From: Bacilli bacterium
Lineage (GTDB): Bacteria; Bacillota_I; Bacilli_A; RFN20; CAG-826
Length of the DNA: 51,421 nt
Direction: 5' to 3'
Assembly (NCBI GenBank): GCA_017651565.1
Contig: JAGCCQ010000044.1
Span: 1-51,421, forward strand
Below the pieces are notes generated by a model. The model ran no database searches and was not told the DNA's origin. It saw only the letters and a program-made list of their open reading frames with translations. How positions within the stretch are numbered: position 1 is the stretch's first letter; each line of letters begins with the position of its first letter. Below are positions 4,908 through 43,728 of the stretch, in pieces. A program made the translations under genes and the position numbers.

Positions 4908-5645
4908 TTATTCAATTATAGCTGCAGGATGAAGAATCTTTGGCTCATTAGGAGTTTTATTAGCGTATTTGAAATATTGATAACTAGAAAAATCGCGATA
5001 ACAAGGAAAACCATACGAAAAATTAATTTCAAGTGTGTCTTTTTCCATTAGAAATTTCAAAATAGTATAACCACCATCATTTGGCGCTATAAAATCATCG
5101 TATTTGCGGAAAGGCTCATTGAAGTAAAGATTGAGATTATAGTTGATATCGTCTTTATCAAAACTATCTATAACGTTAACACTATCTTCAGATGCATTAT
5201 ATGTCCCAGTTTCAATAGTAACTTTATACACAGTTGCACCATTTAATAGCTCGTAATTTGGAAATATTTCTTTTAATCTGTATTCTTTATCAGCAAAAAA
5301 TAAATCACTACTTATAGTAAGAACGGAACTTCCTAATATTGTGAATTCAAAAATTGCTAAACCATTTGAATCGTAATCAACAGGTTTCAATTTTTCATCA
5401 TCTAAATATGCATAGAAAGTAACATCGGTAACAGATTTTAGCTTGAATTTGAATTTATGTCCATTATCGTATTTCCCACTTCTCACATCACCTATAATAA
5501 GATCACTATCTCCATTAACAGTTAAATCACTTAATCCTTCAGGAGCAACATCTTTATTGTTAGATGCTCTTTGGTAGGAACCGCAACCGCCAATAGAAAA
5601 AGATAACAGTATCAAAGACAAAAACATTATTTTCTTGACTCGCAT
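4908..5645 (-). CDS. Lipoprotein of unknown function
   Basis: A 245-residue lipoprotein. The signal peptide ends in the lipobox IGGC (LLSFSIGGCGSYQ). GGGAGG 7 nt before the ATG at 5645 supports that start over 5660. The mature part is Asp/Lys-rich and appears beta-rich, with no catalytic motif that I recognise. It stands alone: a 125-nt gap separates it from the peptidase gene on the same strand and a long gene-free stretch lies upstream. Probably attached to the outer face of the membrane. Confidence 0.7.
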   Translation of the reverse strand: MRVKKIMFLSLILLSFSIGGCGSYQRASNNKDVAPEGLSDLTVNGDSDLIIGDVRSGKYDNGHKFKFKLKSVTDVTFYAYLDDEKLKPVDYDSNGLAIFEFTILGSSVLTISSDLFFADKEYRLKEIFPNYELLNGATVYKVTIETGTYNASEDSVNVIDSFDKDDINYNLNLYFNEPFRKYDDFIAPNDGGYTILKFLMEKDTLEINFSYGFPCYRDFSSYQYFKYANKTPNEPKILHPAAIIE

Positions 5646-32491: not shown

Positions 32492-35400
32492 TTATTTTTT
32501 ATAATAAGCTTTTAACTCAGCTGCGCTATTAAACAAAATGTATGAATGAGTTGCACCATTTTCTGTATATTCAATCCAGAATTTACAAGGATTCTTATCA
32601 ATGGCGATATTGCTCATTCTATCATTATCATAGTCATCTCGACTTCTAACTAAATAATAAACATTTGTATCTTTTAAATATTGAGAAGGATAACGGTTAG
32701 CGTTATAGCCAACATTGTCCCATAAGTGTAACTCATCTTTGATTTTCATAGTTTGATTAGTGAAAATCTTATTTCCTTCACTGTATGTATATTGGGCAGT
32801 TTCACCAATCAAAACCGCACCATCTGTTTGTGCTCTAGTGCCATGGAAAATGCTATAGTTATCACCAATCTTAGGCCCGCTTGAATACCATGAACCAATA
32901 TCGTCATAATCGATACCTAAATAAAATTTTGCTTGGCTATCAGTTGTTCTTCCTGAGTCCCTACCGGAGACCATAGGTAAATGGAAATACTTTAATTTAG
33001 AACAATTTCTAAATGCACCTCTACCAATTGTGGTTAATTGTGTAGCTTGGCTTAAGTCAACAACGCCTTTGGTGATAACTTCTTTTGTTGCGTCTGGATC
33101 TGCAAATAATGTAGAAACATTTTCATATGTCAAACCCTCATAATCGCTGTAGCGATAATAAGTATAAGTTGTAGAACCATCAGTCATTGTTTCTAAGTTA
33201 CTGCAACCCTCAAAAGCGCCAAAACCAATCTTCTTAATCCCGGTTGGTATTGCGCATGAAGATAAATCAAAAGTAGTCATGCTTGTGCAGTTAGCAAAAG
33301 CGCCAAAGTTATCAAGCCATCTATAGAAATAATGTCTATTGGCCATGTTACCTTGGAAAACACTACCGAGGTTACTATATTCTGTTGTGCTAAATTCATA
33401 GGATGTGCTGAAATCTTTTGGAGCCATATCATAGACGCTATAGTTTGCGCTCGTAGTCCAAACATCATCTCCAGTTTCAGGAGCTGCTGCAATATACTTT
33501 AATCCAGCTACACCTGTTATTTGAGTAATACTGGTACTCTTGTTAAATGCGCCACCGTAAATAGTTGAAACTGTAGTTGGCAATGTAACAGAAGTATATT
33601 TGGTGTTAGCAAGTGCTCTAGCACCGATAGCAACAATGTTATCTCCATTAATAGAAACAGAGCTTAAATCTAATGCCTGATTTTTGTTTGGTGCAGAATA
33701 TAACAAAGTCTTTGTAGCTGTATCATACATAGCGTCATCAATATAAGAGAAAACGCTGCCACTTCCATCAAATTCTGAAATAGAAACAGTATCATTGCTA
33801 GCAACTAAGAACGCACTATTTCCCATCATATTCATGCCGCTAGAAAGTGTTACTTTTTGGAAATCGTTATTAAAGAATGCTAATTCTTCAACTTTAGTTA
33901 CAGTGCTTGGTAAGAAACAAATATTAGTTTTTGGAGTAACTCCGGTATCGGTTACTTCAACACCATTATCTTTATAAGTAACGATATCAATGCCATTAGT
34001 TCCACAACTATAGAAAGCACGATCTCTAATAGTGGTTACGTTTGCTGGAAGAATGATTTTTTCACTAGGAAGCGCATCGTTTGATAAAGTTCCAAACGAT
34101 GAGGAACCAATCATATCGATTGGCGTGCCTCCTACATTCCATGTAGTCATATCAATACATGAAAGTCCACTTCCATAGCACTTAGTAACAATATATTTAT
34201 TATTCTTCTTTAGTAAAGCCGCGCAGTTAGAATAATCATCTGTTGGATTATCAGAAAGTGCACCAGTAGTTAAATTAACATATTTAATAGTTCCTGAAAT
34301 TGTCCAATCAGCATTGAAATAAGTAGGAACAACAGATCTACCAATAACGTCTTCTCTACGAGTATTTCCATCTGTTGTAGGAGCGTAAACTTTATCATCG
34401 TTGCTTCTAAGATATTCATTACTATAAGTTCTAGGATCGGAGTTCCAAACATAATATTTTTGTTGTCTGCTTCTTCTTACTGGCGCATCTTCTCCATCAA
34501 CATAAATAACTACATCTCTAAATTCACATGAACCATCAGGAGAGTTACCACTTCCACAAACATAGAAAATTGATTGAGATTCACCGCCACCATTAGCACC
34601 GTTATCATATGTGGACCAAATGAAAATATCATCTTCCTTGTTGTATAAGTATCTAGATAAGAAGATTTCCTTCAATTTAGAGCAACCTTCAAACATGCCT
34701 GCACCTAAACGCAGCATTTTCTTAGTTGCTTTAAATCTTAGTAGATTTTCACAGTTAGCAAAACAATATCTACCAAAACCTATTCTAGGGTTATCCGACG
34801 CTTGCCAGCCCTTATTTTGAGTAGGATTAACCCCACCTAAATCTTGCATTGTTACGTATTTAATAAGAGGGCAATGTTCAAATGCATTCATTCCAACACA
34901 CCAGTTTTGTTTATTAAAGTTACCTGAAGGTTGAACTTCATAAACCGCACCATCAGACATTGATTTAGGAAGAATTAAGTCTAAGGTGCCTTTATATTGG
35001 CTCGCTGCGTTTATTCCTAAATATGAGAAAGCATAACTGCCAATAAGTTTTAGGTTTGCTGTGTTATAGTTGAAATCAACACCAATAGCTTTTCTAAAGT
35101 TTCTAAATGCAGAATTGCCAATATACCACATACAAGAAGGAATATTAATCACGCTTGTATATGAATCGTTATTGCCGTTTCCATAGAAAGCTTCATGCCC
35201 AATTTCGTGTAAATGAGTGCAAGCACTAAAATCAATTGTTTTTAGTTTCTTACATCCTTTAAAAGCTTGCTTACAGATTTGGACAAGTTCTGAATTAAAT
35301 ACAACACCTTCTAAATTAGTATCGTTTGTGAAAGCTTGTTCAGAAATAACTTTTACTGGCGAGCCATCAATTGTTTCAGGGATAGTAACTACTTTAGTTG

Positions 35401-36538
35401 TGGCATTATAATCCGCAGTAGATTCACTTGGAGTTTCCCATTTGAATATTGTTACATACTCTTGAGAAGGACTTTCGAGTACCTTATTACTAACACCATT
35501 ATCTGTGCCATTATATTTAATAGGCACATTTTGTTTAAAATAAACAAATCCTAAATGATTATCGTCCATTGTAATCTGACTTTGCGTCTCTCTAATAGGA
35601 ACATAGTCAGCTATTTCATCATCTAAGTTAGTTGCAACGTGCTTTTTACGGTAGATAGTTCCGCCTTCAAAAGCAGCATCTAAATCAGCAGCGTAGCCAT
35701 TGTAATAAATTCTTAAATTATTACATTGTGCGAATGCGTATTTCTCAATATTAGTAACGTTAGATTCAAAATACATGATTGTAAATTTTGCACAATCTGA
35801 GAATGCATATTTACGGATAGCGATTTCATTAACGCCATTATTTACTGGAAGATATAAACCACTAATTTCCTTACAGTTCATGAAAGCGCTATCACCGATT
35901 TCTGCTAAATTAGCAGGGAAATCGAACTTTTTAAGTTTTATACAAGAAGTGAATGCATGGTCTCCAATAATATAAGGATTATTTTCAAAGAAATTTGTGT
36001 CGTTTCTATGGTTTTCGATATAAGAAGCAACACCACTCATATCAATGGTTACAAGATTTCTACAGTCCATGAATGAAGATGGACCAACACCATGAATACA
36101 CTTTTCAGGCATTGCAAAGGACGTAATGTTTTGACATGAATAGAATGCTTCAGCTTTAATTTCCTCTATGTTATTGCCTGCAAAAGTAATACTAGAGAAA
36201 TTGCAGAAACGGAATCCACATTCAGCAATTGCTTTTACTTGGTATGTAATTGTTTCATTTTCAACTTCTTTTGTAACTGTTTGAGGGATAGTTAAAGTAC
36301 CTTCTGAATCTTCAATGTTCTTTGCCCAACCAATGGAACAAATGTTTTGGTTATTTGCACTTTGTAATGGATAGCAAATGAAATTCTCAGTTGTTGAATC
36401 AATAAAAGAAGGCTTTGTAGTGTCAGTATTATAGTAATCAATAAAGCTAGCGACTGTGTAAGAGATGCCTAAAAAGGATGATACAGCCATAAAGCTAATC
36501 AATGGAGAAATTAATAGAAATAGTTTTTTATTCTTCAT
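32492..36538 (-). CDS. Giant BspA-type leucine-rich repeat surface protein
   Basis: A 1348-residue exported protein with an N-terminal membrane/signal segment (residues 5-32). Most of its length is LRR_5 (BspA/TpLRR) repeats, for example IGDHAFTSCIKLKKFDFPAN and IGDSAFMNCKEISGLYLP, with the recurring pattern I-x-x-x-A-F-x-x-C. In Bacteroidetes, Treponema and Trichomonas such proteins mediate adhesion. There is no LPXTG motif; the N-terminal segment may anchor it. It is the third gene of the operon behind the c-di-GMP riboswitch, starting 3 nt after the previous stop. It ends at the bidirectional terminator. Confidence 0.88.
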   Translation of the reverse strand: MKNKKLFLLISPLISFMAVSSFLGISYTVASFIDYYNTDTTKPSFIDSTTENFICYPLQSANNQNICSIGWAKNIEDSEGTLTIPQTVTKEVENETITYQVKAIAECGFRFCNFSSITFAGNNIEEIKAEAFYSCQNITSFAMPEKCIHGVGPSSFMDCRNLVTIDMSGVASYIENHRNDTNFFENNPYIIGDHAFTSCIKLKKFDFPANLAEIGDSAFMNCKEISGLYLPVNNGVNEIAIRKYAFSDCAKFTIMYFESNVTNIEKYAFAQCNNLRIYYNGYAADLDAAFEGGTIYRKKHVATNLDDEIADYVPIRETQSQITMDDNHLGFVYFKQNVPIKYNGTDNGVSNKVLESPSQEYVTIFKWETPSESTADYNATTKVVTIPETIDGSPVKVISEQAFTNDTNLEGVVFNSELVQICKQAFKGCKKLKTIDFSACTHLHEIGHEAFYGNGNNDSYTSVINIPSCMWYIGNSAFRNFRKAIGVDFNYNTANLKLIGSYAFSYLGINAASQYKGTLDLILPKSMSDGAVYEVQPSGNFNKQNWCVGMNAFEHCPLIKYVTMQDLGGVNPTQNKGWQASDNPRIGFGRYCFANCENLLRFKATKKMLRLGAGMFEGCSKLKEIFLSRYLYNKEDDIFIWSTYDNGANGGGESQSIFYVCGSGNSPDGSCEFRDVVIYVDGEDAPVRRSRQQKYYVWNSDPRTYSNEYLRSNDDKVYAPTTDGNTRREDVIGRSVVPTYFNADWTISGTIKYVNLTTGALSDNPTDDYSNCAALLKKNNKYIVTKCYGSGLSCIDMTTWNVGGTPIDMIGSSSFGTLSNDALPSEKIILPANVTTIRDRAFYSCGTNGIDIVTYKDNGVEVTDTGVTPKTNICFLPSTVTKVEELAFFNNDFQKVTLSSGMNMMGNSAFLVASNDTVSISEFDGSGSVFSYIDDAMYDTATKTLLYSAPNKNQALDLSSVSINGDNIVAIGARALANTKYTSVTLPTTVSTIYGGAFNKSTSITQITGVAGLKYIAAAPETGDDVWTTSANYSVYDMAPKDFSTSYEFSTTEYSNLGSVFQGNMANRHYFYRWLDNFGAFANCTSMTTFDLSSCAIPTGIKKIGFGAFEGCSNLETMTDGSTTYTYYRYSDYEGLTYENVSTLFADPDATKEVITKGVVDLSQATQLTTIGRGAFRNCSKLKYFHLPMVSGRDSGRTTDSQAKFYLGIDYDDIGSWYSSGPKIGDNYSIFHGTRAQTDGAVLIGETAQYTYSEGNKIFTNQTMKIKDELHLWDNVGYNANRYPSQYLKDTNVYYLVRSRDDYDNDRMSNIAIDKNPCKFWIEYTENGATHSYILFNSAAELKAYYKK

Positions 36539-36541
36539 AAG

Positions 36542-39500
36542 CTAAGGCCCCCATACAGTAAATGTTTGATATGGTCCGCTATATAAATCGGTACCTAATA
36601 TCGGAGATTCATTATTAATAACAAACCGTGGATTGCTCTTTCGATCATAGAATAGTAAGTATGTAATAAAGTCATTGAAACGAGCTCTAATATAAACGTT
36701 GTTACTTACAGTTGTAGTATCAACAACCATTTTTCCTACTAAATCAGTGAAATTACCACTGAAAGAGAAGTTAGCAAAGAAACTATTGTCATTCAGGTTA
36801 AATGGGTTTGTGACTGGGTCTTTTAATAAGAAGTCAACATCCATAACAGTATTACCAAGTGTCGTCATGTTGATTTCGCCTAAATCACCATTAGTTTGTC
36901 CTTGAACACAAACGTAATATAATCTTGCGCTTGTGTGACCTGTTTTCTTAGAAGAACCGATAACGTAAGTTCCTCTAGGAAGTTTGAAGATATGACCAAA
37001 TAAGAAACTACCATGAGTCATATTTCCACCTTGAGGAAGAACTTCACCTGCGGTATTAGTTTCACCAGTTGATGAATATGGGAAGAATCTACCCATGTTA
37101 TAACTTCCAGTGTTGCTATTTCCTGTAGAAGCCATTGTGTATAGTTCTTCAGGAGTAGAAGGTGAATTTGGATCATATCTATAAATACTGATATCTCCAC
37201 CACATCCTGCGATAGAAACATTCGCACCATTAGGATTTTCAATTGTGAATGCAACTGATTTTTCAGGATAGTACTTAGTTTCTCCGTTAACTGTATATTG
37301 TTTTGGAGTGGTTGGCTGACCAATCAACATGTAACTATTAAGTCCAGTAACAGGTCTAGTAGAATCTTGTGAGAATTGGACTTTAAAACCAAATCCTTTA
37401 TTTCTCCAACTGATTGGCTTGCCTAATTTATCAATTAAAATTGATGATAAGTAATTCTTTAAGAATTCACTATCAGTATCATACATGTAGTTATAAAGCT
37501 CGTTACCTTTTTTGAAGTTAGCAGCTTCAGTTAAATCTAATTTGAATAAGTAGTTAAAATCTCTTGAGAATGGATATCTAAAAGAACCAACGTTAGAGAA
37601 ACTTGGTAATGTGTTCATGATTAGAGGAGAGAATGTATTTCCTTTATTCCAATCAGCTTCAGCAGTTGAGAAATAAATTGCAGTTTTTGGAGTGGAATCA
37701 TAAATAATAGAACAATCTCCAATAGTATTACGCCAACTCAATGCATCTAAACTATGGTTATTTTCAATAGAGCTATATGCAGTAACAATCTTAAATACAC
37801 CTAAACCACGATTCTCATTCGAAGAAGTTCCATCACAGATAACTTTATTAGGAGCAAAATCAACAGAATTCATTTTCGTATCAAAGCTATTTCCACTAGG
37901 AAATGTATAATCACTACCAGAACCGACGTTATTTTCTATAATATCACCCTGACCACCAGCAGAAGTAATGTAGTGTTTATAAGGCGAAGCAGTATCGCAT
38001 CTTAAGTATTCTTTGTATAAATCAAAAGTTTCTTGAGTAGCACCTCTAGGTCCATATTTCCCTTCTCCGTCTACATGATCAACCGCATAGGAAATAAAAG
38101 TTTTTTGGGTACTAGTAAAGTTGCCATTTGAGTCACAAATGTAATTATATCCAGCAATTGTTTGATCTCCTGCTTGGAACGGCTCACGAATTAAAGAATA
38201 AATATGTGAAAAGTTTAAAACACCAGTCTCACCATTACTTGTCGCACCAAATTGAGGATTGATGTCACTAATAACGTTTAAACCAGTTTTTCCGATTAAA
38301 CCGCTTTCACTTTGTGTTTCAATGTTATGTAAATTTTCATCGTTAGAATTAAACAACAAAGTACCGTTATAAACATAACTTCTAACAACATTGCCATCAG
38401 CGTGTCCGACGAGATAACCAACGTTATTTCCGTGACCATTATTGATTGGGTTATTGCCTGCACCAATAACGTGATCACAGGTAATAATTAGTGATAATAC
38501 TAATGGTCCATTATCTACTATAGGAGCGTGTCTTACTTCAACATTATAACTTTGGATAACTCTAGAGTATTTATAACCATTCAATTTGATACTAGCAACA
38601 AGGGAAATATCGAAATTCATTCTGACTGGTGTGGAGTCATTAAATTCCACTGGCAGATTGTCTAAATCAACAATTAAGTTGTTAGTATTTTTTTCATTTA
38701 CCATCACCCCTGCAGATGTCGAAACTGAGTACTCAATATTATGATTATTTATGGTTGGGAAACTAGGAATAAGTTTAGCTTTTAAGATGCGTTCTCCATC
38801 GAATTGACTTGTTGCATCATCTACTACTTCAGACTTACCTAACAAGTCATCAACACTAAATGGTTCAACACTCTTTAAGTCATGATTGTGGTTTGCTTCT
38901 TCATATGTAGAAACAAGAGTTAAAGTAGCTAATTCAAAGTTTTCTGCGTTTTGAGAAAAGATATCATCTATCTCTTGAGAGTATAAGAAATTTTCTTCTC
39001 CACTAGTCGAATAACCATAAGAAGAAATTTCCAAATCTTTACAAATAACATTCTTAACTGTGCTTGTATAAGCAGTATATCCGAACATACCAATATCTTC
39101 TGGATTACCTGCTACTCTAAGCCCAACTATAGGAATGAAGTTACCATCAAATTCTCCATAAAATGGAGTGCCTTCATTTCCAATAGGAAGCAAAGGATTA
39201 GTTGCACAGAAACTAGTTAAGTCCAAAACATCAACCTTAACATCACCATCTAAACATTTAGGTCCTTCTGCTTCATATCCTTCAAAAACATGTCCAACAC
39301 GGAAATATGTTTTTTCAGGGAAAACACCAAGGTTTTGTAAACGAGTTAAGTTATAGAAATGAAGCGGAGTAACGATTTCATGAGGATATTGTTCTGTACC
39401 ATCACCAATATATCCATCACCACGATAGAAATATTCTCTTAAACCAACACTACCATCTACGTTTTGGTCTGGCGCGCGCGTATTAGAATAAAACCAAGCA

Positions 39501-39589
39501 AAAGAAATAACTGCTAAAGTAACTGGCACTGAGTTACCAATTATACAGCCTATTAATAATTTGGTCAGTTTCTTTCTATGTACGCTCAT
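36542..39589 (-). CDS. Large exported surface protein
   Basis: A 1015-residue protein with one N-terminal hydrophobic segment (residues 10-32, ending SFAWFYSNTRAP, reminiscent of TasA/camelysin-type leaders ending AWF). After it comes a GLUG-like region: PFYGEFDGNFIPIVGLRV followed by IGMFGYTAYTSTVKNVICKD, a pattern of beta-helix adhesins. The rest is beta-rich with many Asn/Gly/Ser. It lies 7 nt after the third gene's neighbour upstream and 3 nt before the LRR gene. A surface adhesin or fibre component is likely, not proven. Confidence 0.75.
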   Translation of the reverse strand: MSVHRKKLTKLLIGCIIGNSVPVTLAVISFAWFYSNTRAPDQNVDGSVGLREYFYRGDGYIGDGTEQYPHEIVTPLHFYNLTRLQNLGVFPEKTYFRVGHVFEGYEAEGPKCLDGDVKVDVLDLTSFCATNPLLPIGNEGTPFYGEFDGNFIPIVGLRVAGNPEDIGMFGYTAYTSTVKNVICKDLEISSYGYSTSGEENFLYSQEIDDIFSQNAENFELATLTLVSTYEEANHNHDLKSVEPFSVDDLLGKSEVVDDATSQFDGERILKAKLIPSFPTINNHNIEYSVSTSAGVMVNEKNTNNLIVDLDNLPVEFNDSTPVRMNFDISLVASIKLNGYKYSRVIQSYNVEVRHAPIVDNGPLVLSLIITCDHVIGAGNNPINNGHGNNVGYLVGHADGNVVRSYVYNGTLLFNSNDENLHNIETQSESGLIGKTGLNVISDINPQFGATSNGETGVLNFSHIYSLIREPFQAGDQTIAGYNYICDSNGNFTSTQKTFISYAVDHVDGEGKYGPRGATQETFDLYKEYLRCDTASPYKHYITSAGGQGDIIENNVGSGSDYTFPSGNSFDTKMNSVDFAPNKVICDGTSSNENRGLGVFKIVTAYSSIENNHSLDALSWRNTIGDCSIIYDSTPKTAIYFSTAEADWNKGNTFSPLIMNTLPSFSNVGSFRYPFSRDFNYLFKLDLTEAANFKKGNELYNYMYDTDSEFLKNYLSSILIDKLGKPISWRNKGFGFKVQFSQDSTRPVTGLNSYMLIGQPTTPKQYTVNGETKYYPEKSVAFTIENPNGANVSIAGCGGDISIYRYDPNSPSTPEELYTMASTGNSNTGSYNMGRFFPYSSTGETNTAGEVLPQGGNMTHGSFLFGHIFKLPRGTYVIGSSKKTGHTSARLYYVCVQGQTNGDLGEINMTTLGNTVMDVDFLLKDPVTNPFNLNDNSFFANFSFSGNFTDLVGKMVVDTTTVSNNVYIRARFNDFITYLLFYDRKSNPRFVINNESPILGTDLYSGPYQTFTVWGP

Positions 39590-39596
39590 ATTTAAG

Positions 39597-40463
39597 TCAC
39601 ACTAAATCTACACTGAAGACATAATCATTTATGCCTAATCTATTTTCTACCGCTAAGTTTCTAGCATATTTTTCTAGCTCTGAAGGAGCATAGTTAACAT
39701 TGATATAGAATGTTGCTCTACCATTAACAAAGTTAAGAGTCTTTAAATTTTGTTCATCATGAATAGCTATTTGAGATGGCTTAGGATTTGATTCATAGAA
39801 ATTTGCATGTGTAGCGCTTTCTTCTGATAGATAAGAAATCTTGTAGAAAAGTTCATCATATCCAGTAAGAGTTGTATTCTCTACATCATCAATATGACTT
39901 GGATAATAAGTTTTACCTGTTACCGCAGTTAAATCACTTGGAGTATAAATATCAAAATCAACACAGTCAGAAAGATAGAAATCTGACTCAGAAGTCTTCG
40001 CCTTATTCAATAAATCCGCGAATACTTCTAGTCCTGCAGTAATATTTCCTGCAGATACCTCAACAATAAATACTGCATTACAGTATAAATCTCTCAAATC
40101 AGTACCTAATTCAACTAAAACAGGATCAAACAAATTCATTGTTTGAGGGTTACCATTAGCGTCTTCGAAACGCTCGTGGCCAACACCACTTACATAATCA
40201 TAAACATTTACTGAACCATCTTCTGGTTTTAAGTAAAGAGACTCTCCATCTACGATTGGGTAATTGAATTTACAAAGTCTAATTGATTCAATCACAATTC
40301 CATCATTTTTAGCAGAAACAACAATGCCATCAGTTTCCACTTTTTGATTAGTGAAAAACCACGCTGCAGTACCTGAAATAAGGGAGCCAAAAGAAACCAC
40401 AGTTGCAGTAACTGCGCTAGCTATTTTTAATTTTCTAAGTGTTAATTTAGACCAGTTTTTCAT
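39597..40463 (-). CDS. Exported protein with TasA/camelysin-like leader, first gene of the riboswitch operon
   Basis: A 288-residue protein. The leader (residues 10-38) ends SLISGTAAWFFTNQKVETDG, resembling SipW-processed TasA/camelysin leaders, followed by a beta-rich domain. No SipW peptidase is in the window. The nearest ribosome site (GGGAG at 40480-40484) lies 16 nt before the ATG, which is longer than usual and lies in the loop of an 8-bp hairpin (AGCCAGTT with AACTGGCT). A c-di-GMP-I riboswitch is upstream. Probably a fibre or matrix subunit made at a particular c-di-GMP level. Confidence 0.75.
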   Translation of the reverse strand: MKNWSKLTLRKLKIASAVTATVVSFGSLISGTAAWFFTNQKVETDGIVVSAKNDGIVIESIRLCKFNYPIVDGESLYLKPEDGSVNVYDYVSGVGHERFEDANGNPQTMNLFDPVLVELGTDLRDLYCNAVFIVEVSAGNITAGLEVFADLLNKAKTSESDFYLSDCVDFDIYTPSDLTAVTGKTYYPSHIDDVENTTLTGYDELFYKISYLSEESATHANFYESNPKPSQIAIHDEQNLKTLNFVNGRATFYINVNYAPSELEKYARNLAVENRLGINDYVFSVDLV

Positions 40464-40485
40464 GAAATAAGCCAGTTATCTCCCT

Positions 40486-40626
40486 TTACCGAAGGCAACT
40501 GGCTATCTTGTGTTAAATATGCATGAAAATCCCAATTGTTTTTATCAATTGAGGTTACTGGCTATCTTACAAAGACCCTATAGTTTTGCGTCGCCGAATT
40601 CCTTCGGTTTTGCTTTTTACTCTACT
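40486..40626 (-). promoter_or_regulatory. c-di-GMP-I (GEMM) riboswitch controlling the surface operon
   Basis: On the minus strand AGCAAAACC, a GNRA-capped hairpin CCGAA-GGAA-TTCGG, the hallmark GACGCAAA, then GGGTCTT and AAGATAGCCAGT match the c-di-GMP-I aptamer core. The 3' half occurs twice: AAGATAGCCAGTAACC (complement of 40553-40568) and AAGATAGCCAGTTGCC (complement of 40494-40509), identical at 14 of 16 positions, 59 nt apart. Between them is an 8-bp hairpin (CTCAATTG/CAATTGGG) followed by ATTTTC, a possible terminator. The second copy's AGCCAGTT can also pair with AACTGGCT next to the start codon. Switching direction cannot be predicted by eye. Confidence 0.88.
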
Positions 40627-40629
40627 TAT

Positions 40630-40658
40630 TTTTTATCATATATATTAATATATGTCAA
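40630..40658 (-). promoter_or_regulatory. Promoter of the riboswitch-surface operon
   Basis: Minus-strand consensus -35 TTGACA (40653-40658) and -10 TAAAAA (40630-40635, with TGA just upstream as an extended -10), 17 nt apart. Transcription would begin near 40623, directly at the aptamer. Confidence 0.75.
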
Positions 40659-40935: not shown

Positions 40936-43728
40936 CTAGTAGAGTTTAGTTAGAATTTTCTTCATATCTTCAACTAATGGAACTCTTGGGTTTGCAGGAG
41001 AACATTGATCTTCAAATGCTAACATACAAACTTCATCCATCTTAGCGAAGTATTCTTCTTTATCAATACCTAAACCAGAGAATCTAGTTTCTAAGCCGAT
41101 ATCTTTACTTAAATCTTCACATGCTTTAGCAAGTGCTTCTACAGCTTCAGCTTTGTTCTTATATTTAAGTTCTAACATCTTAGCGATTTCTGTATATTTT
41201 TCATCTGCTACATACTTATTGTATTTAGGCCATACAGATAATTTAGTAGGAACTTGTCCATTATATCTAATTACTTCTGGAAGTAAGATAGAACAAGTAT
41301 ATCCGTGTACAGTATGGAATTCTGCACCAATCTTATGAGCTAATGAGTGAGTCATACCTAAGAATGCATTAGCAAATGCCATACCTGCAATAGTAGCAGC
41401 ATTATGCATTTTTTCACGAGCTTCTAAGTCATGTTTACCGTCTTTTACAGCTCTTGGCAAGTATTTAAATACTAATTCAATAGCCTTCAAGGCTAAACCA
41501 TCAGTAAAGTCATTAGCCATAACTGAAACATAAGCTTCAATTGCGTGAGTTAATACATCCATTCCAGTCATAGCAGTTGCTTTAGCAGGAAGGTTAGTTG
41601 TGAACTCAGGATCAACAATAGCGATTGTAGGAGTTAATGAGTAGTCAGTTAATGGATATTTCTTGTTATTTGCTTTATCGGAAATAACTGCGAAAGGAGT
41701 AACTTCGCTACCAGTACCTGATGTTGTAGGAATACAAATTAACTTACTCTTAGCACCTAATTCAGGATATTTAAAAGCACGTTTTCTAATATCCATAAAC
41801 TTTTGTTTTAAGTCATCAAAGTTGACTTCTGGATGTTCGTAGAATAACCACATACCTTTAGCAGCGTCCATAACACTACCACCACCCAACGCAATAATTG
41901 TGTCAGGTTTGAAGGTCTTCATTAACTCAGTACCTCTTTTTACTGTAGTGATATCTGGATCTGGTTCGACATCACAGAATAACTGCATTTCTACTTTATT
42001 ATTTCTTGTGTTAAGTTCATCACAAATCTTAGTGAAGAAACCTAATTCAACCATGCTAGCATCTGTAACAATGAAAGCTTTATCTAATTGCTTACAATCG
42101 TGTAAGTATTGAATAGAATTTCTTTCAAAATATATTTTTCTTGGTACTTTAAACCATTGCATATTGTTTCTCCTTTTTGCTACCTTCTTAATATTAAGAA
42201 GATTAATAGCACTAACGTTACCGCCTACACTGTTGTGCCCGTATGAGCCACAACCTAAAGTTAAGGAAGGTAAAAGTGAATTGTAAATATTACCAATTCC
42301 ACCGAAAGTTGAAGGAGAATTCCATAAAATTCTCATTGCAGGAACATAGTCACCAAATTTAACTGATAAGGCTTGGTCTTTACAGTGAATAGCAGCACTA
42401 TGGCCTAAACCATTAAAGTTAACTGAATCATATGCATAATTAAAGCCCATTACTTCATCATTAACTTTATAGAAAGCTAATACTGGAGAAAGCTTTTCTC
42501 TGCTTAATGGCTCTTTAGGACCAATGCCATCACAGAAAGCACCTAAAAGAACAGTGTCTTTAGGAACATCAAATCCAGCATTTTTAGCGATTATATAAGC
42601 TGATTTGCCAACTGCTTCTGAATTTAATCTAGCATTTTCTACACCAGCATCACCATTAGCATATCCAAACATATATCTAGAAAGTTTTGCTTTTTCTTCT
42701 TCGTTTACAAAATAAACTTTGAATTTCTTGAATAAAGCAATCGCACTATCATATATATCCTTATCAATAATAATATTTTGTTCAGAAGCACAAATCATTC
42801 CGTTATCAAATGATTTAGAAAGAACAATATCATTAACAGCTTGTTCTAAATTAGCTGATTTATTTATATAGCTAGGAACATTACCAGCACCAACACCAAG
42901 AGCAGGTTTACCGCAGCTATAAGCTGCTTTAACCATTGCGTTACCACCAGTAGCTAAAATAGTAGCAACATCTTTATGATTCATTAATAAATTAGTTGCT
43001 TCCATAGATACATTTTCAATCCATTGGATGCAGTTTTCTGGAGCGCCTGCCTTAACAGCAGCGTCTCTCATAATTTCTGCAGCCATCTTAGATGATTTAA
43101 ATGCATTTGGATGGAAAGAGAAGATAATTGGGTTTCTTGTCTTAAGACAAATTAAACATTTAAATATAACAGTTGAAGTAGGATTAGTTACTGGAGTGAT
43201 ACCACAAACAACTCCTAAAGGTTCTGCGAGTTCTACAATACCTGTAACAGGATCTTCTGAAATCTTACCAACTGTTTTAAGTTGAGACATATTATTAACA
43301 ACATATTCGCAAGCGAATAAATTCTTAGTTGCTTTATCTTCAAAGACACCTTTTTGAGTTTCTTCTACTGCAGCTTTTGCTAAACTACCATGATGGTCAA
43401 GACCAGCAACAGAACACTTAGAAACAATATAATCAATTTTAGTTTGATCAAAAGTTGAGAAATCTTGTAATGCTTTAACTGCTTTAGCAACTAAATCATT
43501 CACTTCGCTTTCACTACTGTTAACTTTGTTAACACCATTTCTTTTATCATCTAAAGCTTTGCGGTATAAATCAACTTCGTCAGCTTTAAGATATTTACTT
43601 CTTGTTTTGCCTTCTTGGTCTCTCCATTGAAGATAAACCCTAGTTTTTCCATTTATAGTCTTATTGACAATACTACATTTAGGAAGTTTATCTAATTCTT
43701 GAGAAATTTTTTCTTCCATTTTTTCCAT
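40936..43728 (-). CDS. adhE: Bifunctional aldehyde-alcohol dehydrogenase AdhE with extra N-terminal domain
   Basis: A 930-residue enzyme reducing acetyl-CoA to acetaldehyde and ethanol. The aldehyde dehydrogenase half has AEPLGVVCGITPVTNPTSTV, LGVGAGNVPSYI and the catalytic cysteine in FDNGMICASEQN. The linker ends at MQWFKVPRKIYFERNSIQYL; the iron alcohol dehydrogenase half has IALGGGSVMDAAKGMW, PTTSGTGSEVTPFAV, and iron ligands in GMDVLTHAIEAY and MTHSLAHKIGAEFHTVHG. The first 70 residues (GKTRVYLQWRDQEGKTRSKY) precede the usual AdhE start and resemble a small domain found near transposase- or recombinase-type proteins; canonical AdhE is about 870-890 residues. AGGAG precedes the ATG. Confidence 0.94.
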   Translation of the reverse strand: MEKMEEKISQELDKLPKCSIVNKTINGKTRVYLQWRDQEGKTRSKYLKADEVDLYRKALDDKRNGVNKVNSSESEVNDLVAKAVKALQDFSTFDQTKIDYIVSKCSVAGLDHHGSLAKAAVEETQKGVFEDKATKNLFACEYVVNNMSQLKTVGKISEDPVTGIVELAEPLGVVCGITPVTNPTSTVIFKCLICLKTRNPIIFSFHPNAFKSSKMAAEIMRDAAVKAGAPENCIQWIENVSMEATNLLMNHKDVATILATGGNAMVKAAYSCGKPALGVGAGNVPSYINKSANLEQAVNDIVLSKSFDNGMICASEQNIIIDKDIYDSAIALFKKFKVYFVNEEEKAKLSRYMFGYANGDAGVENARLNSEAVGKSAYIIAKNAGFDVPKDTVLLGAFCDGIGPKEPLSREKLSPVLAFYKVNDEVMGFNYAYDSVNFNGLGHSAAIHCKDQALSVKFGDYVPAMRILWNSPSTFGGIGNIYNSLLPSLTLGCGSYGHNSVGGNVSAINLLNIKKVAKRRNNMQWFKVPRKIYFERNSIQYLHDCKQLDKAFIVTDASMVELGFFTKICDELNTRNNKVEMQLFCDVEPDPDITTVKRGTELMKTFKPDTIIALGGGSVMDAAKGMWLFYEHPEVNFDDLKQKFMDIRKRAFKYPELGAKSKLICIPTTSGTGSEVTPFAVISDKANNKKYPLTDYSLTPTIAIVDPEFTTNLPAKATAMTGMDVLTHAIEAYVSVMANDFTDGLALKAIELVFKYLPRAVKDGKHDLEAREKMHNAATIAGMAFANAFLGMTHSLAHKIGAEFHTVHGYTCSILLPEVIRYNGQVPTKLSVWPKYNKYVADEKYTEIAKMLELKYKNKAEAVEALAKACEDLSKDIGLETRFSGLGIDKEEYFAKMDEVCMLAFEDQCSPANPRVPLVEDMKKILTKLY

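Follow-up and report, generated by a model that had tools for sequence, protein, structure and literature searches.

Riboswitches are usually described as one aptamer followed by one expression platform, or as whole aptamers arranged in tandem. The leader described here raises the question of how a c-di-GMP-I aptamer with a single 5' half is served by two copies of its 3' half, and which copy belongs to the ligand-binding fold. One 5' half with two competing 3' halves would represent a third, compact type of arrangement, whose outcome would be decided by strand exchange between copies of an aptamer strand.

The leader lies on the minus strand of the window (the whole stretch of 51,421 nucleotides analysed), between an adhE-like gene (40936-43728) and a three-gene operon (32492-40463), and holds one c-di-GMP-I aptamer. 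A first reading, made from the sequence alone, had proposed a c-di-GMP-I riboswitch with a duplicated 3' half at this place, and the GEMM-I model agrees: RF01051 matches 40550-40624 (minus strand) with 48.1 bits against a gathering score of 35 (E 2e-06). No second RF01051 match was found in the leader, even at a permissive threshold. The features expected of the family, namely P2 with a GNRA loop, the GACGCAAA core, and P3, are present. The promoter scan requires a T at the end of the -10 element and did not flag the TTGACA/TAAAAA pair listed below; the position of the -10-like TAAAAA predicts a transcription start near 40623. The parts of the leader are as follows, "split" denoting loci with one 5' half and two 3' halves.

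40653-40658, minus strand: -35 element TTGACA, assigned by eye; the 17-nt spacer is kept in the orthologue of genome G001.
40630-40635, minus strand: -10-like TAAAAA with TGA before it, assigned by eye and kept in the G001 orthologue.
40620-40622, minus strand: 5' strand of P1, GAG, found in 18/18 split loci versus 8/117 single-copy loci.
40594-40607, minus strand: P2 hairpin with GNRA loop; 100% of cells paired and compensatory changes at three pairs over 18 loci.
40572-40592, minus strand: 5' half of the aptamer core, GACGCAAAACTATAGGGTCTT (pocket and 5' strand of P3), from the RF01051 match; near-invariant across split loci.
40553-40568, minus strand: copy 1 of the 3' half, AAGATAGCCAGTAACC, with A at 40556 in place of a conserved U.
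40526-40556, minus strand: hairpin HP1, whose 5' arm is the tail of copy 1, followed by TTTT; 98.9% of cells paired over 18 loci, terminator-like in the scan.
40494-40509, minus strand: copy 2 of the 3' half, AAGATAGCCAGTTGCC, canonical by consensus and pairing over 18 loci.
40480-40487, minus strand: purine run AAAGGGAG, seen in the sequence, in the loop between copy 2 and the anti-copy; a weak Shine-Dalgarno by distance.
40470-40477, minus strand: anti-copy (third partner) AACTGGCT, the 3' arm of hairpin HP2; it forms a 9-bp run with copy 2 and a 7-bp run with copy 1.

The 3' half is thus present twice, 14/16 bases identical and 59 nt apart (40568-40553 and 40509-40494), and the third partner (40477-40470) adjoins the start codon, lying a few nt ahead of the ATG at 40463; on both points the sequence-only reading was right. 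It had also let the third partner enclose the ribosome site. A purine run does lie between copy 2 and the third partner, but it is ~16 nt from the ATG and therefore a poor Shine-Dalgarno by distance.

Distribution and relatives of the split layout

Loci were collected by a two-TAGCCAG pattern, then by order-wide and model-based searches. With the pattern, the split layout came to light in a single congener and, within the family, in numerous species of another genus. Altogether, 21 loci with this layout were found in 14 genomes, which belong to two genera (G000 and G001 of genus g1; G165-G169 and G171-G177 of genus g25), so that the second 3' half, whose conservation in orthologous leaders had been proposed as a check, is indeed conserved. 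A covariance model built from 18 of the 21 loci matches all 21 over their full length with 131-167 bits; the other matches listed reach at most 81 bits and span approximately the length of a single-copy riboswitch, except for two in genus g7 (G110 and G118). The 18/18 counts given here come from the 18 aligned loci and are not independent, because all 21 loci are related.

The split layout precedes two gene families, AWF-motif proteins like those of the window and basic membrane proteins of the MYD..RRRRR type. In the latter family, orthologous leaders with one 3' half (in G026 and at another locus of the window's genome) and with two differ by a clean insertion of ~60 nt, the terminator and the downstream leader being alike. 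Because both forms occur naturally, what the insertion does to the threshold, the leak or the steepness is directly testable. Past the terminator, MYD-type leaders (e.g. L086, L087, and L039) keep the stretch GGATGATAGGCA.CTGGCTTTTATTTC..CCCATTGGGACAAA over many genera; it lies well ahead of the ATG and includes a CCCATTGGGACA element.

In a wide GTDB scan with AGGGYCT..YAGCCAG..YAGCCAG, the upstream aptamer core was present in 0/118 loci among the matches listed, and those matches contain no evidence for the split layout outside the order. The class-level pattern gave five matches besides the window's own; three are c-di-GMP-I riboswitches, each of them a complete tandem. Close tandems of complete c-di-GMP-I riboswitches were seen at L341 (G528), L342 (G499), and L338 (G553), and at L341 each of the two aptamers has its own, nearly identical terminator. 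Among the relatives, L044 was considered as a double-3'-half case and rejected as a false double. At L037 (G029:C20), a weak c-di-GMP-I match (5008-5086) located 490 nt upstream of a full one (5499-5578) appears to overlap an open reading frame.

A leader in G110 (L354, G110:C16, ~162-235) has a canonical 3' half with its own terminator and then a second, 3'-half-like stretch, AGATAGCCGGCTAC, able to pair with a GTAGC next to the start codon, as in a transcription check followed by a translation check. It is possibly an independent second case of a doubled 3' half. The leader of a relative, G118 (L355), is without a full second copy.

With other c-di-GMP-I (GEMM-I) members of RF01051, the leader shares the 5' half, the GNRA-capped P2, the GACGCAAA core, P3, and a terminator that uses the 3' half. 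It differs from them in having two alternative 3' halves that a conserved hairpin separates, a copy 1 that is off-consensus at the pocket-closing position, and an A at position 20. Tandem c-di-GMP-I riboswitches are common, with 347 doublets and 12 triplets (PMC9481103), and include Bc3-5 of B. thuringiensis (PMC4759541). Like these, the leader repeats sensing elements of one class before a gene, for which a steeper response would be expected; unlike these, it has a single 5' half instead of two complete aptamers, and as a result at most one complete aptamer can exist at any time. The survey of tandems discarded overlapping matches as false positives (PMC9481103); lone or overlapping Rfam matches can conceal split designs. 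The c-di-GMP-I riboswitch Bc1, which has a dual terminator, resembles the leader in its one aptamer and two successive terminator-like hairpins; a second 3' half is not mentioned in its abstract, whereas in the leader both hairpins overlap in sequence with a 3' half of their own (PMC11218506). In the open literature, subscription papers aside, nothing similar was found to one 5' half with two alternative 3' halves, or to duplicated or partial aptamers. On sequence grounds, the leader is best classed as a c-di-GMP-I member, by the model and by copy 2, that is not a tandem by definition and whose architecture appears to be new.

Pairing partners of the two copies

Among single-copy aptamers of the relatives, 116/117 have U as the second base downstream of AGCCAG. 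In the Rfam model, this U pairs with the last A of GACGCAAA and thereby closes P3 at the ligand pocket. Copy 2 carries this U and the C next to it at 18/18 loci and forms the A-U pair, whereas copy 1 carries A at 18/18 loci, which leaves an unpaired A.A. In the inner P3 helix, pairing reaches 98.6% with copy 2 versus 56.9% with copy 1. The GAG of P1 pairs with the tails of both copies. Two variable outer positions of P1 co-vary with the tail of copy 2, both sides having changed in 7 cells; this covariation (0.188 versus 0.065 in shuffles, a value reached by 0/500 of them) is support and not proof, because the shuffles keep relatedness in. Between P1 and copy 1, covariation was not found in the 18 loci, where the tail of copy 1 never varies, and pairing of the 5' half with copy 1 in P3 has no covariation support, the P3 strands being almost invariant.

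Copy 2 is thus the canonical half. The pocket-closing U, the P3 pairing, and the P1 covariation together indicate that it is copy 2 that completes the aptamer and that copy 1 is an altered version. The sequence-only reading had likewise seen better agreement with the aptamer consensus in the second copy. Its further point, that copy 2 can extend P3, is real in genus g1, although the pocket-closing pair and the P1 covariation are better evidence for copy 2. A pairing between copy 1 and copy 2, proposed by RNAalifold, was dropped: nearly all of its columns are invariant, and they show no covariation.

Each copy also has a second partner. Copy 1 contributes its tail, AACCUC, as the 5' arm to HP1 (40556-40526), which shows compensatory changes towards its loop and is followed by an invariant TTTT at 18/18 loci. 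HP1 is flagged by the terminator scan in the window and sits at the tail of the 3' half, a place that the terminator occupies in many single-copy relatives. With its conserved UUUU, it may be an earlier, leaky checkpoint.

The second partner of copy 2 is the stretch around AACTGGCT, with which it pairs over 9 bp (copy 1 over 7). The third partner pairs better with copy 2 in 17/18 loci and equally well with both copies in one; HP2 measures 9-11 bp at roughly half of the loci. The orthologue in the congener carries TTTTTT after the third partner, which is thus a terminator arm; the U-tract, clear in that orthologue, is interrupted in the window (TTATTTC). Copy 2 is followed by a terminator-like layout (anti-3'-half and U-tract) in 15/18 aligned split loci. 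In the other three (G171, G173b, and G175b), the tail faces the start site and HP2 is not a terminator. As the window's U-tract is interrupted and HP2 is no terminator at these three loci, the level of control may differ between loci.

A terminator that shares the 3' half of the aptamer is an ON-switch (anti-termination) design. HP2 shares sequence with the aptamer in this manner, through the 9-bp run between copy 2 and the anti-copy, and in single-copy relatives an anti-3'-half is followed by a U-tract in 62/115 cases versus 10.6 expected in shuffles. By analogy with the architecture of these relatives, the split leader would be an ON switch as well. The earlier suggestion of competing folds instead of a simple on/off terminator therefore holds in part. 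Copy 2 does have alternative pairings, but the conserved HP1 between the copies had been overlooked, and the output would still be an ordinary ON/OFF decision reached by an unusual route, because the third partner is a terminator arm (a start-site hairpin in three loci).

Proposed order of pairing, ligand, and alternative readings

Nearest-neighbour energies were calculated with P2 and HP1 held, leaving tertiary contacts and ligand energy out of the calculation. When copy 2 has been made and the HP2 arm has not, the copy-2 fold is favoured in 18/18 loci (-0.4 to -4.0 kcal/mol); once the HP2 arm is made, copy 1 together with HP2 is favoured in 18/18 (+0.6 to +11.3 kcal/mol). In unconstrained equilibrium folding, mean pairing is 0.62 with copy 1, then 0.55 with copy 2 (versus 0.06), and finally 0.84 in HP2; at several loci, such folds give the 5' strand different partners. 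Folding both alternatives, as had been advised at the outset, thus yields the order copy 1, copy 2, HP2. This order suggests that the RNA would pass three stages, with the ligand decision falling between copy 2 and the HP2 arm. The same energies (mean +0.9 kcal/mol) do not support a role of copy 1 as a placeholder that stabilises the OFF state.

We lean towards an ON-type c-di-GMP-I riboswitch whose single 5' half is shared by two 3' halves, one after the other. The order of pairing and the hand-over, as predicted from the nearest-neighbour energies, would be as follows. The 5' half would pair with copy 1 once this is transcribed. HP1 would then fold and take up the AACCUC tail of copy 1, including the C meant to contact the ligand. 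Aligned with Vc2, this C would correspond to C92. C92 is a ligand contact in the published structure (PMC3764141). Lacking the conserved U, and with its tail occupied by HP1, copy 1 would be at best a weak aptamer. Copy 2 would next emerge with its canonical tail (YURCC and the P1 strand) and displace copy 1; in the resulting ligand-binding aptamer, copy 1 and HP1 would lie in a loop within P3. With c-di-GMP bound, copy 2 would be kept in the aptamer and the operon read; without ligand, copy 2 would pair with AACUGGCU to form the terminator or start-site hairpin, and the operon would be off. Strand displacement during transcription decides several riboswitches, among them yxjA purine (PMC9756952) and pfl ZTP (PMC10085676). 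There, a strand of the expression platform invades the aptamer, whereas here a second copy of an aptamer strand would invade.

By analogy with the riboswitch family, the ligand would be c-di-GMP. The window's genome, a 74%-complete assembly, has four c-di-GMP-I aptamers and six GGDEF matches, the latter being only an indirect pointer to c-di-GMP binding. Position 20, a ligand contact, is A and not G in the window. The same A occurs in 15/18 split and 64/117 single-copy members of the family, and is not diagnostic in this family. Elsewhere, A at position 20 marks c-AMP-GMP variants (PMC9481103), so the ligand may differ from c-di-GMP. Aptamers with A and with G at this position occur within one genome; mixed sensing of c-di-GMP and c-AMP-GMP in the family is possible on this basis.

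A second reading, possible but more doubtful, makes copy 1 a working, weaker aptamer that must hold ligand to block termination at HP1. After the polymerase has passed, a late-forming HP1 would drive the 5' half onto copy 2, and ligand would be needed again against HP2. One sensor half would in that case be used twice, in a ligand check with copy 1 at HP1, a strand exchange, and a second check with copy 2 at HP2; such two-step proofreading, which we put forward tentatively, would give a tight OFF state and a steep response from one sensor half read twice. The place of HP1, its terminator-like form, and the UUUU at 18/18 loci are in keeping with this, but the U-tract is short. The GAG of P1 is complementary to the CUC of copy 1 at 18/18 loci, including three with a changed copy 2 tail, yet the conserved U is absent from copy 1 at all loci. 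By nearest-neighbour energies, leaving AACCUC out of HP1 carries a penalty of only +3.2 to +4.2 kcal/mol in genus g1, but +7 to +11.6 kcal/mol in genus g25. The leader of G110, where a canonical copy with its own terminator precedes a 3'-half-like stretch at the start site, fits such a two-step scheme; it is, however, one genome, and its relative G118 is without the second copy.

It is unlikely that the leader is a decayed tandem, i.e. two full riboswitches of which the second lost its 5' half, so that copy 1 works and copy 2 merely feeds the terminator. Complete close tandems of c-di-GMP-I riboswitches do exist in the class, one of them before a similar AWF-type gene, and on inspection HP1 is placed where a second P2 would be. 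However, copy 2 has retained the aptamer consensus, and its tail co-varies with the 5' strand in P1, both needless for a plain terminator arm, and it is copy 1, not copy 2, that departs from the consensus. As history, loss of the second 5' half from a tandem may still be the origin of the split layout.

We give very little credence to an inverted logic, in which ligand bound to copy 1 would keep the 5' half off copy 2 and let HP2 form, making c-di-GMP an OFF signal. Tight binding by copy 1 would indeed free copy 2 for HP2, with its 9-11 bp in about half of the loci, but copy 1 is without the conserved U, its tail is taken by HP1, and the single-copy relatives are of the ON type. A chance repeat within an ordinary riboswitch, single-copy switches being the family norm, is scarcely credible and is refuted by conservation at 21 loci in two genera.

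The operon behind the leader

A surface-protein operon of about 8 kb had been noted behind the riboswitch, and three closely spaced minus-strand genes (32492-40463, ~8 kb) make it up:

39597-40463, minus strand: gene 1, 288 aa, membrane-anchored, with AWF motif; homologues at other c-di-GMP-I loci.
36542-39589, minus strand: gene 2, 1015 aa, N-terminal hydrophobic segment with AWF motif; no family match.
32492-36538, minus strand: gene 3, 1348 aa, BspA-type leucine-rich repeats (PF13306).

Genes 1 and 2 match no Pfam or NCBIfam family above cut-off. A fold search with the 288-aa protein gave nothing significant, the best matches being adhesin beta-sandwiches (E 2e-03, TM ~0.15). At the start of both proteins (36542-40463) is a hydrophobic segment with AWF at its end; many products of the family's other c-di-GMP-I loci share this feature.
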